A stretch of 64,000 nt of DNA, taken from Amycolatopsis sp. WAC 01376. GTDB taxonomy: Bacteria > Actinomycetota > Actinomycetes > Mycobacteriales > Pseudonocardiaceae. Each line of letters begins with the position of its first letter. Positions within the stretch are counted from its first letter, which is position 1. Location: the NCBI RefSeq assembly GCF_003947415.1, contig NZ_QHKL01000003.1, positions 372,001 to 436,000 of the forward strand, in the 5' to 3' direction. The translations under genes and the position numbers were made by a program. A model generated the notes under the pieces. It was not told where the DNA came from and ran no database searches. It saw nothing but the letters and a program-made list of their open reading frames with translations. Shown piece after piece: positions 44,537 to 50,934 of this stretch.

Positions 44537-45685
44537 GTGGACCAACTCACTCTCGGCGTCATTTGCCACTCGCGAAAAGAAAACGAGTGGCGGCTTCCGA
44601 TCCATCCGCGGCATCTCGAGCGGATCGACCCCGGTCTCCGGACGTCCATTTTCCTCGAAAACGGCTACGGCGAACGCTTCGGCATTCCGGACGAGGACCT
44701 CGCGCCCCTGGTCGGGGGCCTGCGCTCCCGTGAACAACTGATCGCGGACTGCGACGTCATTCTCCTCGCCAAACCGCTCGCGGAAGACCTGGCCGAACTC
44801 CGGCCGGGCCAGACCCTTTGGGGCTGGCCGCACTGCGTTCAGGACGACAAGATCACCCAGCTGGCCATCGACCGGAAACTGACCCTCATCGCCTTCGAAG
44901 CGATGAATCACTGGCGTAGCGACGGTTCTTTCGGCCTGCACGTCTTCCACAAGAACAACGAATTGGCAGGCTATTGCTCGGTGCTGCACGCGCTGCAGCT
45001 GACCGGCTCGACCGGCGATTACGGCCGCCGTCTCCGCGCCGTCGTGATCGGCTTCGGCGCCACGGCGCGTGGTTCGGTGACGGCGCTGAACGCCCACGGA
45101 ATCCACGACGTGCACGTGCTCACCCACCGTGGCGTCACCGCGGTCGGTTCGCCGATCCACTCGGCGAACATCGTGCATCTCGACCACGACCTGAAGGGCC
45201 CGGCCGACCTCCGCCGCAGCCACGCCATCACCGAGGACGGCCGCGTGCCGCTGGCGGAGTTCCTCGCCGGGCACGACATCGTCGTCAACTGTGTGCTGCA
45301 GGACCCGAAGGCGCCGTTGACTTTCCTCGTCGAGGAAGACCTCGCCGAGTTCCGGCGCGGCAGCCTCGTCATCGACGTTTCCTGCGACGAGGCGATGGGC
45401 TTCGGCTGGGCCAAGCCGACGACGTTCATGGAGCCGACCTTCGAGGTCGGCGGCCTCACCTACTACGCCGTCGACCACAGCCCGTCCTACCTCTGGGATT
45501 CGGCGACCTGGGAGATCAGCGGCGCCCTGCTGCCGCATCTGAAGCAGGTGCTGGCCGGCCCGTCCGCGTGGGCCGCCGATCCGATCCTCGACCGGGCGAT
45601 CGAGATCAGCGAGGGCAAGATCCGCAACCCCGACATCCTGTCGTTCCAGCACCGCTCGCCGGAGTATCCGCACGCGCACCAGTGA
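44537..45685 (+). CDS. N5-(carboxyethyl)ornithine synthase-like dehydrogenase
   Basis: A 382-residue protein of the alanine dehydrogenase/lysine-saccharopine dehydrogenase superfamily. The N-terminus CHSRKENEWRLPIHPRHLER matches N5-(carboxyethyl)ornithine synthase, with WPHCVQDDKITQLAIDRKLT and FEAMNHW. A Rossmann region, VVIGFGATARGSVTALNAHG, binds the cofactor. The lactococcal enzyme condenses pyruvate with ornithine or lysine using NADPH. GTG 44537 follows AAGGGG. Monocistronic; the physiological product in this organism is unknown. Confidence 0.85.
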   Translation: MDQLTLGVICHSRKENEWRLPIHPRHLERIDPGLRTSIFLENGYGERFGIPDEDLAPLVGGLRSREQLIADCDVILLAKPLAEDLAELRPGQTLWGWPHCVQDDKITQLAIDRKLTLIAFEAMNHWRSDGSFGLHVFHKNNELAGYCSVLHALQLTGSTGDYGRRLRAVVIGFGATARGSVTALNAHGIHDVHVLTHRGVTAVGSPIHSANIVHLDHDLKGPADLRRSHAITEDGRVPLAEFLAGHDIVVNCVLQDPKAPLTFLVEEDLAEFRRGSLVIDVSCDEAMGFGWAKPTTFMEPTFEVGGLTYYAVDHSPSYLWDSATWEISGALLPHLKQVLAGPSAWAADPILDRAIEISEGKIRNPDILSFQHRSPEYPHAHQ

Positions 45686-45696
45686 GACGCGGGCTC

Positions 45697-45736
45697 GATG
45701 AGAAAGTTCTCATCGAGTCCTCATCGGTGGCTCACC
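45697..45736 (+). promoter_or_regulatory. Response-regulator site A: CTCATC direct repeats, 11-bp period
   Basis: GATGAGAAAGTTCTCATC (45697-45714) is an inverted repeat, continued by CTCATC units at 45709 and 45720 and CTCACC at 45731, each exactly 11 bp apart. It lies 22 bp before the first gene of the two-component operon. The same arrangement recurs at 48104-48143. Confidence 0.7.
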
Positions 45737-45757
45737 GGCGCCGGGCAGCCTGGTGTC

Positions 45758-46045
45758 ATGCGAGTCCGAATCATCGTCCTGGCCGGGGTCGCCGCCGTCG
45801 TGGTGGCGGCCACCGGCACGTTCGCCGTCATCGCGGCCACCGCGGTGTCGCCGCCCGACCTCGGCCCGGCGGTCGTCGCCCCCGCGGGACGGGCCGTCAC
45901 CGGGCCGGGGGAGCCGGGTGCCCCGCCCGCCGTCGTCCCGCCCCGGCTGGCCGGGCACGACGACGACCTCGATGATGACAATGACCATGACCGCGACCAT
46001 GACCGCGACGGTGACGACCATTTCGACTTCGACCTCGACGACTGA
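45758..46045 (+). CDS. Small exported Asp/His-rich protein
   Basis: A 95-residue protein with an N-terminal membrane or signal segment (VRIIVLAGVAAVVVAATGTF), a Pro/Ala-rich middle, and a C-terminal stretch of about 30 residues made almost only of Asp, His, Arg and Asn (GHDDDLDDDNDHDRDHDRDG). Such tails bind divalent cations. It precedes the sensor kinase by 9 bp, so it may help present or buffer the ligand, for example a metal ion; this is inference. Similar small hydrophilic secreted proteins precede kinases in Streptomyces. Confidence 0.75.
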   Translation: MRVRIIVLAGVAAVVVAATGTFAVIAATAVSPPDLGPAVVAPAGRAVTGPGEPGAPPAVVPPRLAGHDDDLDDDNDHDRDHDRDGDDHFDFDLDD

Positions 46046-46054
46046 GCGGGGCCG

Positions 46055-47446
46055 ATGAGCGCCCGCGCCCGGATCCTCGCGTGGGTCCTGCTGGTCGTGC
46101 TGCTGGCGCTCGCCGGGTCGCTGCTGGCGACCCGCACCGTCCTGCACAACCAGCTGGACCAGCGGCTCGACAACGAGATCGCGCACGAGACCGGCAAACT
46201 CCGCGCCTTCCTGGCGTCACCGGACGCCCGCCCGGCCGGGCAACCCGCCACCGTCGAGGCGGTCCTCGGCCGTCACCTGGAACGGAACCTGCCCGAGAAG
46301 TACGAGACGTTCTTCTCGATCAGCGACGGCGTGGCGTCGAGGCGGAGCGCCATCGAGCCGCCGGTCCGGCTCGACACCGACCCGAAGTTCGTCGCCGAAC
46401 TGTCCCGGGCCACGAGCCCGGCCTACGGCACGGTCACCACCGCTGTCGGGTCGGCGCGCTACGGCGTCGTCCCGGTGACCATCGAGGGCTCACCGGGCCG
46501 CGGCGCGCTGGTGATCGTCGAGTTCGTCGACCACGCCGCGGGCGAGATCAACGACGTCGCCGGCGTGATGGCCGCGATGTCGGGGGCCGCGCTGGTGCTG
46601 GCCGGGCTGATCGGCTGGCTGGTCGCCGGCCGCATCCTCGCGCCGGTGCGGGAGGTCCGGCTGGCCGCCGAACAGATCGGCGAGACCGACCTTTCCCGCC
46701 GTATCGAGGTCCGGGGCTCCGACGACGTCGCCGCGCTCGGCCGCACCTTCAACACGATGCTGGACAGGCTTGAAAGCGCCTTCGCCGGACAACGCGACTT
46801 CATCGACGACGCCGGGCACGAACTGCGCACGCCGATCACGATCGTCCGCGGCCATATCGAGCTGATGGGTGACGATCCCGGGGAGAACGCGGCCACCCGG
46901 CATCTGGTCCTCGACGAACTCGGGCGGATGCAACGGATCGTCGACGACCTGCTGGTCCTCGCGAAATCCGGCGGCCCCGACTTCCTCGCGCCCGGCGACA
47001 CCGACCTCGCCGACCTCACCGTCGAGACCCTCGCCAAATCCCGCCCGCTGGCCGACCGCGCCTGGCGGCTGGACGCGGTCGCCGAGATGACCGTCCGCGC
47101 GGACGGTCAGCGCCTCGCGCAGGCCTTGCTGCAACTGGTCTCCAACGCCGTCCGGCACACTGCGCCGGGTCAGGAGATCGCCCTCGGCTCGGAAGTGACC
47201 GCGACGACGGCGCGGCTCTGGGTCCGCGACACCGGCGAGGGTGTCCCGCCCGATTCGCGGAGCCGGATCTTCGAACGCTTCAAACGAGGCAGCAACTCCA
47301 GCGGAGACGACGGCGCCGGGCTCGGCCTGGCGATCGTCGCCGCGATCGCCGAGGCGCACGGCGGCCGAGTCCTGCTCGACACCGCGCCCGGCGAAGGCGC
47401 GCGGTTCACCATCGAGATCCCCGTCGCGGAAGGTGTGGACCGGTGA
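46055..47446 (+). CDS. Sensor histidine kinase
   Basis: A 463-residue kinase with two membrane spans (residues 8-26 and about 165-195) flanking an extracellular domain of about 140 residues. A HAMP domain (ILAPVREVRLAAEQIGETDL), a HisKA box with His255 in DAGHELRTPIT, and a HATPase domain (N-box SNAVRHT, DTGEGVP, GLGLAI) follow. It phosphorylates the response regulator that overlaps its stop. The upstream acidic secreted protein and the control of polyphosphate genes suggest a cation or envelope signal. Confidence 0.92.
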   Translation: MSARARILAWVLLVVLLALAGSLLATRTVLHNQLDQRLDNEIAHETGKLRAFLASPDARPAGQPATVEAVLGRHLERNLPEKYETFFSISDGVASRRSAIEPPVRLDTDPKFVAELSRATSPAYGTVTTAVGSARYGVVPVTIEGSPGRGALVIVEFVDHAAGEINDVAGVMAAMSGAALVLAGLIGWLVAGRILAPVREVRLAAEQIGETDLSRRIEVRGSDDVAALGRTFNTMLDRLESAFAGQRDFIDDAGHELRTPITIVRGHIELMGDDPGENAATRHLVLDELGRMQRIVDDLLVLAKSGGPDFLAPGDTDLADLTVETLAKSRPLADRAWRLDAVAEMTVRADGQRLAQALLQLVSNAVRHTAPGQEIALGSEVTATTARLWVRDTGEGVPPDSRSRIFERFKRGSNSSGDDGAGLGLAIVAAIAEAHGGRVLLDTAPGEGARFTIEIPVAEGVDR

Positions 47447-48105
47447 CCAGTGTGCTGGTGGTGGAGGACTCCGCCCGGATCGGCGCGTTCGTCGAGAAAG
47501 GGCTGCGGGCGCAGGGTTTCGCGACCCGCTGGGTCAAGACCGGCGCCGAAGGGCTGACCGAGGCGTTGACCGGCGCGCACGATCTGGTCGTCCTCGACCT
47601 CGGGCTGCCGGACCTCGACGGTTCGGATCTTCTGCGGGCCCTGCGCGCGGCGGGCCGGACGGTGCCGGTGATCATCCTGACCGCGCGGGACAGCGTCGTC
47701 GACCGGGTCGCCGGGCTGTCCGGCGGCGCCGACGACTATCTGGCCAAACCCTTCGCGTTCGAGGAACTGCTGGCACGGATCCGGTTGCGGCTACGGGGAA
47801 ATCCCGAAGCCGAACCGGCGGTGCTGCGCGCCGGGGAGCTCTCGCTCGACCTGCGCACGCGAAAGGTTTCGGTCGCGGGGGAGGAGAAGGACCTCACCGC
47901 CCGCGAGTTCGCGCTGCTGGAAACCTTGCTGCGCAACCGCGGCCAGGTGCTCTCCCGCGAGCAATTGCTAGGCGGGGTCTGGGGTTTCGACTTCGACCCC
48001 GGATCGAACGTGGTGGACGTCTACATCCGGTACCTGCGCGCGAAGATCGGCGCCGAGCGGATCGAAACCGTGCGGGGGATGGGATACCGGCTCGGTGAGT
48101 CCTGA
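47443..48105 (+). CDS. OmpR-family response regulator
   Basis: A 220-residue regulator: receiver domain with acidic pocket Glu8-Asp9 and phospho-acceptor Asp52 (VVLDLGLPDLDG), then a winged-helix DNA-binding domain (LTAREFALLETLLRNRGQVL, VVDVYIRYLRAKIG). GTG 47443 overlaps the kinase stop. OmpR-type regulators bind direct repeats with 10-11 bp spacing, as found upstream of its own operon (45697-45736) and immediately after this gene (48104-48143). Confidence 0.92.
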   Translation: MTSVLVVEDSARIGAFVEKGLRAQGFATRWVKTGAEGLTEALTGAHDLVVLDLGLPDLDGSDLLRALRAAGRTVPVIILTARDSVVDRVAGLSGGADDYLAKPFAFEELLARIRLRLRGNPEAEPAVLRAGELSLDLRTRKVSVAGEEKDLTAREFALLETLLRNRGQVLSREQLLGGVWGFDFDPGSNVVDVYIRYLRAKIGAERIETVRGMGYRLGES

Positions 48106-48143
48106 TGAGACGGTTCTCATCATGCTCTCACGACGGTCTCTTC
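48104..48143 (+). promoter_or_regulatory. Response-regulator site B: direct repeats, 11-bp period
   Basis: GATGAGACGGTTCTCATC (48104-48121) leads into CTCATC at 48116, CTCACG at 48127 and CTCTTC at 48138. Structure and spacing match site A. It lies 23 bp before the DUF4956 gene. Confidence 0.7.
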
Positions 48144-48165
48144 TTCCGGCGGCACAGTGGTTTCC

Positions 48166-48750
48166 ATGACCACGACACTGCTTCATCTCGCCGTCGACCT
48201 CGTCGCCGCCGTCATCCTCGCCTACGGTATCTACTACCGTCGCCACCTGCGAGGTGATCTCGCCTGCGCCTACCTCGCGTTGAACGTCGGCGTCTGCGTT
48301 TCGGTCGCCGTGCTGCTTTCCGTGCCGACCGCGAGCGCGCTCGGGTTCGGCTTGTTCGGCGTGCTGTCGATCATCCGCCTGCGGTCCGATTCGATCAGCC
48401 AGCAGGAGGTCGCGTACTACTTCGTCGCGCTCGTTCTGGGTCTGGTGAACGGGCTGCCGTCCGCGGACTGGCGGATCGTCGCCGTCTTCAACGTCCTGCT
48501 GCTCGCCGTCATGTACGTCGCGGACCACCCGTCGCGCACCCGTGGTCCGCAGCGGCGGACGGTCGTGCTCGACACCGTGTACCCCGACGAACAGACGATG
48601 CTGATGGAACTGCGGGCGCGCCTCGGCGGAACGGTCGTGCGGCACAGTGTGTCCGAAGTGGACTATGTCCGCGAGGTCACCGTCGTCGACGTCCGCTTCC
48701 GGCCGGACGCCGCCGCGGTCGTCCACGGCGCCCCGGCGGGGCACCGGTGA
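48166..48750 (+). CDS. DUF4956 membrane protein
   Basis: A 194-residue protein with four or five membrane segments in the first 125 residues (LAYGIYYRRHLRGDLACAYL, LGFGLFGVLSIIRLRSDSIS) and a cytoplasmic tail of about 70 residues. The RLRSDSISQQEVAYYF motif is typical of DUF4956. Members are commonly encoded next to VTC-type polyphosphate polymerases, as here, where the next gene overlaps by GTGA; they may help move the polymer or its substrate. It is the first gene behind site B. Confidence 0.87.
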   Translation: MTTTLLHLAVDLVAAVILAYGIYYRRHLRGDLACAYLALNVGVCVSVAVLLSVPTASALGFGLFGVLSIIRLRSDSISQQEVAYYFVALVLGLVNGLPSADWRIVAVFNVLLLAVMYVADHPSRTRGPQRRTVVLDTVYPDEQTMLMELRARLGGTVVRHSVSEVDYVREVTVVDVRFRPDAAAVVHGAPAGHR

Positions 48751-49517
48751 GCGGGCGCGGAACGGCCACCGTCGCCGCGGTGGCCAAGGGACTCCCTTCG
48801 CTGTCGCTCGCGGAAGTCGTCGCCACGAGCGGGCTGATGAGCCGGACGGACCGCAAATACGTCCTGAAGCTCAACGACTTCCTGGCCGTCACCGAGTCGC
48901 TGAGGGCGTCACTGCGCTGTCTGGAGATCGAGGGGCAACGCGTGTTCGGCTACTCGTCGACCTATTTCGACACCCCGGATCTGGCGATCTTCCGGGCGCA
49001 CCGGCAGGATCGGCGGCGCCGGTTCAAGATCCGCACGCGCACCTACACCGACTCGGCCGACACCTACTGCGAGCTCAAGGTCAGCGGACGGCGCGACGAA
49101 ACGGTCAAGGTCCGCCGTCCGCATCCGGCCGAGGCGGCGCACGGCCTGACCGCGCCCGCGCTGACGTTCCTCGACGACGCCCTCACCGCCGCCTACGGCC
49201 GCCCCGCGCCCCGGCCGCTGACCCCGGCGCTGATCACCGACTACCGGCGAACCACCCTCGTCACCGCCGACGCGCGCATCACCTGCGACACGTCACTCGT
49301 CTGGCGGTCCGGGCCGCGAAGCCTGGCCGCCGGGGGCGACCTGGTGCTGCTGGAGGTGAAGTCGGCCTCCGAACGCAACAGCGTCACCGAAGCGTTGGCG
49401 AAGCTGCGGATCCGCGAGCAGTCGGTGAGCAAGTACTGCGCGGGCCTGGTGGCGCTGGGGCTGGCCACCGGCGGGAACCGGTGGCGGCCGGCGCTGCGGC
49501 GGCTCGGCGTGGCGTAA
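48747..49517 (+). CDS. VTC-domain polyphosphate polymerase
   Basis: A 256-residue protein matching the VTC catalytic tunnel domain. It has SRTDRKYVLK at the first strand, SSTYFDTPDLAIFRAHRQ, the basic RRRRFKIRTRTY, ELKVSGRRDETVK and LLEVKSASE, with a final QSVSKYCAG. These Lys/Arg and Glu residues line the triphosphate tunnel that makes polyphosphate from ATP. There are no membrane spans, so it may rely on the coupled DUF4956 protein for membrane location. Confidence 0.9.
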   Translation: MSGRGTATVAAVAKGLPSLSLAEVVATSGLMSRTDRKYVLKLNDFLAVTESLRASLRCLEIEGQRVFGYSSTYFDTPDLAIFRAHRQDRRRRFKIRTRTYTDSADTYCELKVSGRRDETVKVRRPHPAEAAHGLTAPALTFLDDALTAAYGRPAPRPLTPALITDYRRTTLVTADARITCDTSLVWRSGPRSLAAGGDLVLLEVKSASERNSVTEALAKLRIREQSVSKYCAGLVALGLATGGNRWRPALRRLGVA

Positions 49518-49572: not shown

Positions 49573-50091
49573 ATGAGGACCAGGGAGAAGGCCGCGGTCG
49601 CCGTCGCCGGGCTGGCCGTCGCCGCCGCCGGGGGCACGGTGCTCGCCGGGACATCCGGCGCCGTCGGCCCGTCGCCGGCACCGAGCGTGCAGGCCGCGGA
49701 GGCGTCGTGCGTGACCGATGGCGCCGGCATGTGCACCGTGCAGCACGCGCTGGGGACCGTCCCGGCAGCGGTGGTCGTTTCGGCGAACACGCCGGGACAG
49801 TTCAACGCGTACATGCTGAACACGGTGCAGGGTTCGTACACGGCGACGACGTTCCAGGTGCGGGCGATGTTCAACCAGACCACGCCGAAGGCCGGTGGGG
49901 CGATCTGGTTCAGCTTCGCGGCGTATGGCGGGGCGCCGGTGACGACCACGCCGAGCCCACCGAAGAGCTCACCCACACCGACGAAGGTCACGCCACCGAC
50001 CACGACGCCGACTACACAAGCGCCGCCCACTGCTACTTCTGAGCTGCCGGGGACTACTACGCCGGGCGGCGGCTCGGGATTGGGCGGCTGA
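49573..50091 (+). CDS. Secreted protein with Pro/Thr-rich tail
   Basis: A 172-residue exported protein: an Ala-rich signal segment (AAVAVAGLAVAAAGGTVLAG), a beta-rich domain of about 90 residues with two cysteines (ASCVTDGAGMCTVQHALGTV, AYMLNTVQGSYTATTFQVRA), and a long Pro/Thr/Ser tail. I do not recognise the domain. GGGAGGACGAAC precedes the ATG. It is 55 bp after the polyphosphate polymerase and could be the last gene of that operon. Confidence 0.7.
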   Translation: MRTREKAAVAVAGLAVAAAGGTVLAGTSGAVGPSPAPSVQAAEASCVTDGAGMCTVQHALGTVPAAVVVSANTPGQFNAYMLNTVQGSYTATTFQVRAMFNQTTPKAGGAIWFSFAAYGGAPVTTTPSPPKSSPTPTKVTPPTTTPTTQAPPTATSELPGTTTPGGGSGLGG

Positions 50092-50689: not shown

Positions 50690-50763
50690 GGGCCGGTAGC
50701 TCAGTTGGTTAGAGCAGGGGACTCATAATCCCTTGGCCGTCGGTTCGAGCCCGACCCGGCCCA
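50690..50763 (+). tRNA. tRNA-Met (CAU), elongator type
   Basis: A 74-nt cloverleaf: acceptor GGGCCGG/CCGGCCC, D-arm GCTCAGTTGGTTAGAGC, anticodon arm GGGACTCATAATCCC with anticodon CAT, variable loop, T-arm GTCGGTTCGAGCCCGAC, discriminator A. The acceptor starts with a G-C pair, so it is not the initiator. The 3' CCA is not encoded. A tRNA-Ile with lysidine-modified CAU is an alternative reading, less likely. Confidence 0.92.
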
Positions 50764-50934
50764 CCGCGTCAAAATCGTTGCCGATCTGCAGGGTTGTTGG
50801 GCCTTCGGCGGCAATTTCCCCTTGGCGTTAATCGCGATTGGGCTCCGTTTTGTCTCCGTTTGCTCAGGTGTGCCGATAGTTGGAGAAGTGCTCTGCGGAG
50901 CCGGTGGTGGCGTAGCAGCCGTTCTGCTTCCTCG
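50764..50934. other. Region 3' of the tRNA without a gene
   Basis: Directly after the tRNA is a lower-GC stretch with repeated CTCCGTTT-like words and no credible coding frame. It looks like decayed sequence, as often found at tRNA integration sites. Confidence 0.4.

Follow-up and report, generated by a model that had tools for sequence, protein, structure and literature searches.

Two matching sites in a 64,000-nucleotide window of Amycolatopsis sp. WAC 01376 (contig NZ_QHKL01000003.1, positions 372001 to 436000; the window denotes this whole stretch of DNA) are most likely a real operator pair of an autoregulated OmpR/PhoB-type circuit, a reading that is well supported on sequence grounds. 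Both sites lie on the plus strand. Site A (45697-45736) is the putative operator of an operon encoding an Asp-tailed membrane protein, a histidine kinase, and a response regulator, and site B (48104-48143) is the putative operator of the DUF4956 and VTC genes. In the circuit we propose, the membrane kinase would phosphorylate the regulator encoded at 47443-48105, which would bind the 11-bp-spaced half-sites as a tandem oligomer, on three head-to-tail units and one inverted half-site upstream of them. Binding upstream of a -10-like element without an evident -35 would activate two leaderless promoters, that of the regulator's own operon and that of DUF4956-VTC, and the local output would be a membrane protein and a VTC-type enzyme, probably yielding polyphosphate at the membrane. 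We regard this whole explanation, a regulator-run and positively autoregulated circuit driving its own operon together with DUF4956-VTC, as probable.

Site A reads GATGAGAAAGTTCTCATC GAGTCCTCATC GGTGGCTCACC, and site B reads GATGAGACGGTTCTCATC ATGCTCTCACG ACGGTCTCTTC. Aligned without gaps, they are identical at 26 of 40 positions. Both contain GATGAGANNGTTCTCATC followed by CTCAyC-like units at 11-bp steps, as a first-pass annotation of the window had described. Site A is composed of the inverted half-site GATGAGA (45697-45703) and the units TCTCATC (45708-45714), CCTCATC (45719-45725), and GCTCACC (45730-45736), while site B is composed of GATGAGA (48104-48110), TCTCATC (48115-48121), TCTCACG (48126-48132), and TCTCTTC (48137-48143). 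The unit starts are exactly 11 bp apart at both sites (45708, 45719, and 45730 in A; 48115, 48126, and 48137 in B), and the third unit of B, TCTCTTC, is degenerate and weak. In each site, GATGAGA is followed by TCTCATC in the opposite orientation, and the palindrome arms are perfect over 8 bp in A and over 7 bp in B. Site B starts within the stop codon of the regulator gene (48103-48105). The last base of each site is followed at 22 and 23 bp by the start codons ATG 45758 (A) and ATG 48166 (B), respectively, and the annotated distance is therefore confirmed. Direct repeats with an 11-bp period upstream of the target promoters, which characterize operators of the OmpR/PhoB family, are present at both sites.

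In the 9.07-Mb source genome (9,071,542 bases in 30 contigs, from a soil bacterium), the 28-nt operator pattern ATGAGANNNNYCTCAYSNNNNNYTCAYS with at most one mismatch retrieved only A and B, both with 0 mismatches, and the reversed control retrieved none. The shared element GATGAGANNGTTCTCATC with at most two mismatches was found at three places, namely A, B, and one place with 2 mismatches, again with 0 for the reversed control. Looser patterns were not significant genome-wide: the bare pair CTCAYS-N5-CTCAYS gave 19 matches versus 9 in the control, and three YTCAYS units with at most one mismatch gave 7 versus 3, A having 0 and B having 1 mismatch. Inspection of the 19 pair matches, with two of them (L077 and L079) looked at further, revealed no convincing additional target in the source genome. 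Near position 1500 of L079, the minus strand carries CTCATC-like repeats, three to four in number and spaced at 11 bp, beside an FtsK/TraB-like gene, and the surroundings look by eye like an integrative element.

We then examined 80 Amycolatopsis genomes, 20 of which carry DUF4956. The operator (28-nt pattern, at most one mismatch) is present at both places in all 20, one copy immediately preceding DUF4956 and a second roughly 2.4 kb upstream, or 0.6 kb upstream in genome G043, which has a deletion. Absence of site B from orthologous operons had been named as a finding that would refute the proposed link; the site is retained in all 20 DUF4956-bearing genomes of the genus, and an 11-bp pair recurs outside the genus as described below. 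Among the 60 genomes lacking DUF4956, seven have one operator match each, and the reversed control gave 0 in the 80 genomes. The 18-nt palindrome with at most one mismatch gave a similar but less complete result: it was found in 24 of the 80, namely the same 20 and four others, and in G031, G056, G058, and G079 it occurs only at A. A kinase orthologue at E ≤ 1e-120 was found in 19 genomes, all among the DUF4956-bearing 20; the twentieth, G043, has lost the kinase. That no genome of the genus has the two-component operon without DUF4956 was considered and dropped, since this search misses a more distant set in G004. Upstream sequence was read for 13 Amycolatopsis loci (L001 and L024-L035), and site A is conserved in them.

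Outside the genus, we used 45 named DUF4956 loci, of which two (L040 and L064) were dropped and 43 had sufficient sequence upstream. YTCAYS-N5-YTCAYS occurs upstream of DUF4956 in 22 of the 43, compared with a mean of 0.034 in Markov shuffles (500 repeats, at most 1) and 0 on the opposite strand. The spacing is specific: 7-10, 12, 13, and 15-19 bp gave 0, and 14 bp gave 2. The loci with the pair belong to Amycolatopsis (11 of 12), Nonomuraea (5 of 6), Nocardioides (3 of 4), and Actinomadura, Spongiactinospora, and Dactylosporangium (1 of 1 each); none of the 18 other loci, from Pseudonocardia, Glycomyces, Streptomyces, Cellulomonas, Acidimicrobiia, and others, has it. Counted without Amycolatopsis, 11 of 31 loci have the 11-bp CTCA pair before DUF4956.

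The first-pass annotation had named the overlapped OmpR-type regulator as the predicted binder, and this assignment is supported by the distribution of regulator and operator, also where the two loci are unlinked, and by a regulator tree. We searched for the regulator in 23 non-Amycolatopsis genomes behind DUF4956 loci (8 plus 15). A close relative (57-65% identity, at least 229 bits) is present in 12 of them, and the operator in nine of these 12; the other 11 of the 23 gave, at the thresholds applied, weaker paralogues or no match. Among the 11 genomes without a close regulator, the operator was found in G086 (one match with 1 mismatch) and in the metagenome-assembled genome G098; ten genomes without a close regulator contain one operator site. 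The two loci are unlinked in Nocardioides G080 and G081 and in Spongiactinospora G082, with the regulator operon remote from DUF4956 or on a different contig, and each of the two carries the operator. A search of 13 genomes with the regulator (4 Amycolatopsis and 9 others) gave 30 operator rows, representing 29 distinct sites, against 2 rows for the control. All 13 genomes have a site at the operon of the regulator itself, 11 of 13 have one at DUF4956, and six sites are elsewhere; in G100, a single operator between divergent operons counts for both. An operator-like site before its own operon is what an autoregulated two-component system should have, binding itself being predicted from sequence. 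In a tree of 51 regulators, with the operator at the own operon scored by pattern or by eye, the 16 operator-bearing regulators fall in one 20-row group with support of 99/96, which also contains three site-less relatives and one long-branched paralogue; 31 of the 32 paralogues are outside. On the basis of this co-distribution and the tree, it is very likely that the linked regulator binds both A and B.

The operator also appears to go with a particular form of the operon, the one with a leader protein. Both site-less operons examined for it (L198 and L200) have no gene for an Asp-tailed leader, and a clear acidic leader tail was found in 17 of 18 operator-bearing operons examined. In L197, the tail is present and the frame is doubtful, as the leader open reading frame (ORF) seems to shift frame between the hydrophobic start and the Asp tail.

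Several observations weigh against the proposed circuit or limit its generality. The Amycolatopsis genomes are closely related, so that the count of 20 of 20 does not represent 20 independent events. In A. regifaucium (L033 4331-5010, the same as L018/G043; one draft assembly), a natural deletion has taken out the entire kinase gene together with the end of the leader gene and the receiver part of the regulator, and DUF4956-VTC and both sites, 577 bp apart, stay in place. An in-frame fusion at this deletion was rejected, as the leader and the C-terminal part of the regulator are in different frames. Genomes G090, G092, and G097 have a close regulator relative without an operator anywhere in the genome, and the recognition helix of these relatives is nearly the same. 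Conversely, G085 and G089 have the regulator's operator, and their DUF4956 genes have none, so the link between regulator and DUF4956 is not one-to-one. The metagenome-assembled genome G098 has the DUF4956 site without a regulator being found in it; its second site, at a contig end, might belong to a regulator operon that is broken there. For the 23 non-Amycolatopsis genomes as a whole, the association of regulator and operator is good, not strict. Finally, in four Amycolatopsis genomes with the operator before another gene (G003, G053, G057, and G005; see below), no two-component genes were found in the 20 kb searched there, about 10 kb to each side of the operator.

The geometry between site and start codon bears on the direction of regulation. 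A -10-like hexamer, CAGCCT (45746-45751, plus strand), begins 9 nt past site A and ends 6 nt before ATG 45758, and another, CACAGT (48153-48158, plus strand), begins 9 nt past site B and ends 7 nt before ATG 48166. Canonical -10 elements are TANNNT-like. The CANNNT hexamer ends only 6-7 nt before ATG, and both promoters are apparently leaderless, with this hexamer as the predicted -10 and no clear -35. The distance from the start of ATGAGA to the start codon is 60 nt at the regulator's own operon and 61 nt at the outputs, in the source genome and in G004. Upstream of DUF4956, this distance is 61 nt, without gaps, in 20 of 20 Amycolatopsis genomes that have the gene, which bears out the annotated placement of site B before DUF4956-VTC, and CACAGT is kept in 18 of the 20. 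The regulator might bind A and B and repress, in a negative autoregulation with phosphorylation releasing or strengthening repression. The units span about -51 to -22 from the start codon, close enough to the presumed promoter for an overlap to block RNA polymerase, and the palindromic left part resembles repressor operators. Against this, both sites have 9 nt between the last unit and the -10-like hexamer, leaving the hexamer free, and no -35 is evident; moreover, tandem direct repeats just upstream of the -10 are the usual geometry of OmpR-family activators. We therefore consider repression unlikely, and, among the cases in which the regulator binds both sites, activation has a good likelihood.

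PhoP, or an OmpR-family paralogue with a similar half-site, could instead bind A and B, the linked regulator not being the main binder. Steps of 11 bp are common to OmpR-family sites, and GCTCACC, the last unit of A, is one base off GTTCACC, the half-site of the 11-bp direct repeat that we take to be the PHO-box consensus. PHO-box-like pairs are also numerous in the genome, with 145 at two mismatches or fewer versus 11 in the control. The best plus-strand PHO-box match, however, has 4 mismatches at A and 5 at B, which does not place the two sites in a PHO regulon, and A and B are absent among the PHO-box matches listed, including the rows of contig C22 around them. A PHO box was rejected as the principal explanation on these mismatch counts. 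An MprA-type box, which may have a similar half-site, was also set aside, since the literature search returned nothing that bore on it. The operator tracks the group of the linked regulator, not a universal regulator, and none of the 29 sites is at the operon of another regulator among the seven loci whose downstream genes were read. A binder other than the linked regulator is accordingly improbable in our estimate. That the likeness of A and B reflects coincidence, a terminator, or a leftover of local duplication has a negligible probability and was rejected: B, which lies directly 3' of the regulator gene, has a palindrome that could fold into a hairpin, but the sites are not G+C-rich and have no T run, only the units and the -10-like hexamer are kept across genera, the same operator occurs at unlinked loci, and chance is excluded by the shuffle test at the 43 loci and the operator counts in the 80 genomes.

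The circuit had been annotated as self-controlled and as serving polyphosphate synthesis. The first part is supported, with the operator at the own operon in every one of the 13 genomes of the operator search; the second needs to be widened, as polyphosphate would be one output of a modular circuit, and a symporter and kinase-like genes take its place elsewhere. Amycolatopsis G004, which lacks DUF4956, has a leader, a kinase with 42% identity, and a regulator with 63% identity (L268 8489-12784). An operator-like site with 2 mismatches precedes this set, and an operator follows it, before a gene of the sodium:sulfate-symporter family (PF00939, 99.2 bits). A kinase-like gene follows the operator in Amycolatopsis G003, G053, G057, and G005 (L264-L267, at about 830-2080); it has weak similarity to proteins of the aminoglycoside-phosphotransferase fold and is 43% related to the gene behind the operator in Pseudonocardia G089 (L197). 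The G003 gene matched no Pfam family at E ≤ 0.1, and its best NCBIfam match (1.5e-4) is far below the cut-off. The start of ATGAGA is 61 nt from the start codon for DUF4956, the symporter gene, and the G005 gene alike; in G003, G053, and G057, a GTG is at 61 nt and a second in-frame GTG at 52. Of the seven DUF4956-less Amycolatopsis genomes with one match, all but G072 were inspected. The G055 match, which may be due to chance, lies 260 bp upstream of a sigma-factor-like ORF.

In other genera, operator-like sites precede genes for Asp-rich secreted proteins in Spongiactinospora G082, Nocardioides G080 and G085, and Pseudonocardia G089, the strict pattern being reached only in G085. These loci, L173 (5547-6414), L174 (6067-6570), L209, and L197 (about 2120-2560), adjoin the two-component operon. 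Two Nonomuraea genomes (L210 and L224) have the operator before related secreted repeat proteins, whose matches to beta-solenoid-type Pfam families are weak and below the cut-off. A single operator match precedes a Rieske-type lipoprotein gene in L211, and in L222 (Nocardioides) an operator with 1 mismatch, which may be chance, precedes a 45-aa Arg-rich ORF and then an ORF resembling an ATP-binding cassette transporter. As the control gave 2 rows in the same 13 genomes, some single matches may be due to chance. Tentatively, these loci might represent an unnamed family of three-gene envelope operons in several actinobacterial families, with one operator and exchangeable outputs that are often polyanionic or anion-handling; such a system could respond to cations outside the cell (metal ions or cationic peptides) with the production of polyanions, and the Asp-tailed protein could serve as a buffer or co-sensor.

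The circuit resembles several described systems without coinciding with any of them. Mycobacterium tuberculosis PhoP binds 7+4-bp direct repeats cooperatively, with triple and quadruple repeats bound more tightly than double ones (PMC4832192). Like PhoP, the present regulator has Response_reg and Trans_reg_C domains and is associated with direct repeats of 11-bp period, but the half-site is CTCAyC rather than TCACAGC, and the inverted half-site, the Asp-tailed leader, and the targets differ from those given there (PMC4832192). PolS-PolR of Microlunatus phosphovorus is likewise an actinobacterial two-component system at promoters of polyphosphate genes, with direct repeats GTTCACnnnnnGTTCaC that are also 11 bp apart (PMC6754071). 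PolR is described as 76% identical to DevR and PolS as a DevS-like GAF kinase, and their targets, the ppk, ppgk, pst, and pit genes, do not include VTC/DUF4956 and are unlinked to polS-polR (PMC6754071). The present system is not of the DevS/DevR type, as the kinase is HAMP-HisKA-HATPase without a GAF match in Pfam and the regulator is of the Trans_reg_C type. Genes for DUF4956, a poly-phosphate polymerase, and CotH adjoin Gram-positive pel clusters (PMC7112168), which thus share the placement of DUF4956 beside a polyphosphate-polymerase-type gene; there, by contrast, the genes are regarded as exopolysaccharide accessories, and the accessible sections describe no two-component system or operator (PMC7112168). 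CutRS of Streptomyces is also an OmpR-type actinobacterial envelope two-component system, but the reported consensus is TAWATAAA, with htrA-type targets; a CutR-type motif was rejected for A and B, since it is different (PMC12802291). The literature search, outside which most subscription papers lie, gave no description of the present circuit, and the literature found assigns no regulation to bacterial VTC/DUF4956 genes. The new elements contributed by this analysis are the leader protein, the fixed geometry of the promoters, and the exchangeable outputs.

Polyphosphate in bacteria is generally attributed to PPK. An operator that is compact, self-controlled, and fixed in its geometry offers a handle on whether and when the VTC gene makes polyphosphate, and, as the same operator stands before other outputs, the signal may be read from what the targets share. 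A by-eye observation on one window can be extended to a cross-genus regulon.

The genes of the region are arranged in the order alanine-dehydrogenase-like gene, site A, Asp-tailed membrane protein, histidine kinase, OmpR-type regulator, site B, DUF4956, VTC, and secreted protein. The alanine-dehydrogenase-like gene (44537-45685) is upstream of site A. Although site A precedes the two-component operon as annotated, the kinase gene does not follow it directly: the first gene is that of the leader (45758-46045, plus strand), which the first-pass annotation had missed and which encodes a 95-aa membrane protein whose N-terminal part has a hydrophobic segment and whose C-terminal tail is rich in Asp. 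A Pfam search up to E 1 assigned the leader to no family, and a comparable acidic-tailed ORF also precedes the kinase in the other operator-bearing operons examined. The sensor histidine kinase (46055-47446, plus strand) has two transmembrane segments, an extracytoplasmic sensor, and HAMP, HisKA, and HATPase_c domains according to Pfam. The model of its sensor has a predicted local distance difference test score (pLDDT) of 85.4 and weak PDC/PAS-like fold matches, the nearest being the sensor domains of WalK, KinD, and CzcS, with no fold match at E ≤ 0.001. The response regulator proposed to bind A and B (47443-48105, plus strand) is assigned to the OmpR/PhoB family by PF00072 (85.5 bits) and PF00486 (92.2 bits), both above the cut-off. 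The heavy-metal kinase and regulator subfamilies TIGR01386 and TIGR01387 are the best NCBIfam matches and are below the cut-off (199 versus 292.55 bits and 210.1 versus 279.2 bits, respectively).

The DUF4956 membrane protein (48166-48750, plus strand; PF16316, 192.9 bits) is taken to start at ATG 48166, which is backed by ungapped alignment in 20 of 20 homologues; GTG 48157 is a possible alternative. The VTC-domain protein (48747-49517, plus strand; PF09359, 94.5 bits) is modeled with a pLDDT of 91.0 in a tunnel-type polyphosphate polymerase fold, and its best PDB fold match is the yeast polyphosphate polymerase 3g3r (E 1e-10, TM-score 0.60); a sequence search of the PDB gave nothing significant. 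The alignment of 21 sequences has 30 invariant columns, 13 of which are Arg or Lys. The VTC domain and triphosphate-tunnel fold are those of a VTC-type polyphosphate polymerase, and in our judgement it is fairly likely that the protein makes polyphosphate. Its predicted fold is like that of the eukaryotic VTC polymerase (PDB 3g3r and 3g3q), from which the bacterial protein differs in having 16% identity, a separate DUF4956 membrane partner, and no SPX domain. The gene of a predicted secreted protein (49573-50091, plus strand) is 55 nt 3' of the VTC gene, with which it may be co-transcribed. Pfam and NCBIfam searches assigned it to no family, and similar sequences adjoin VTC in many Amycolatopsis loci. 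Further 3' of the operon region, a tRNA-like sequence was noticed by eye at 50694-50765 of the window.

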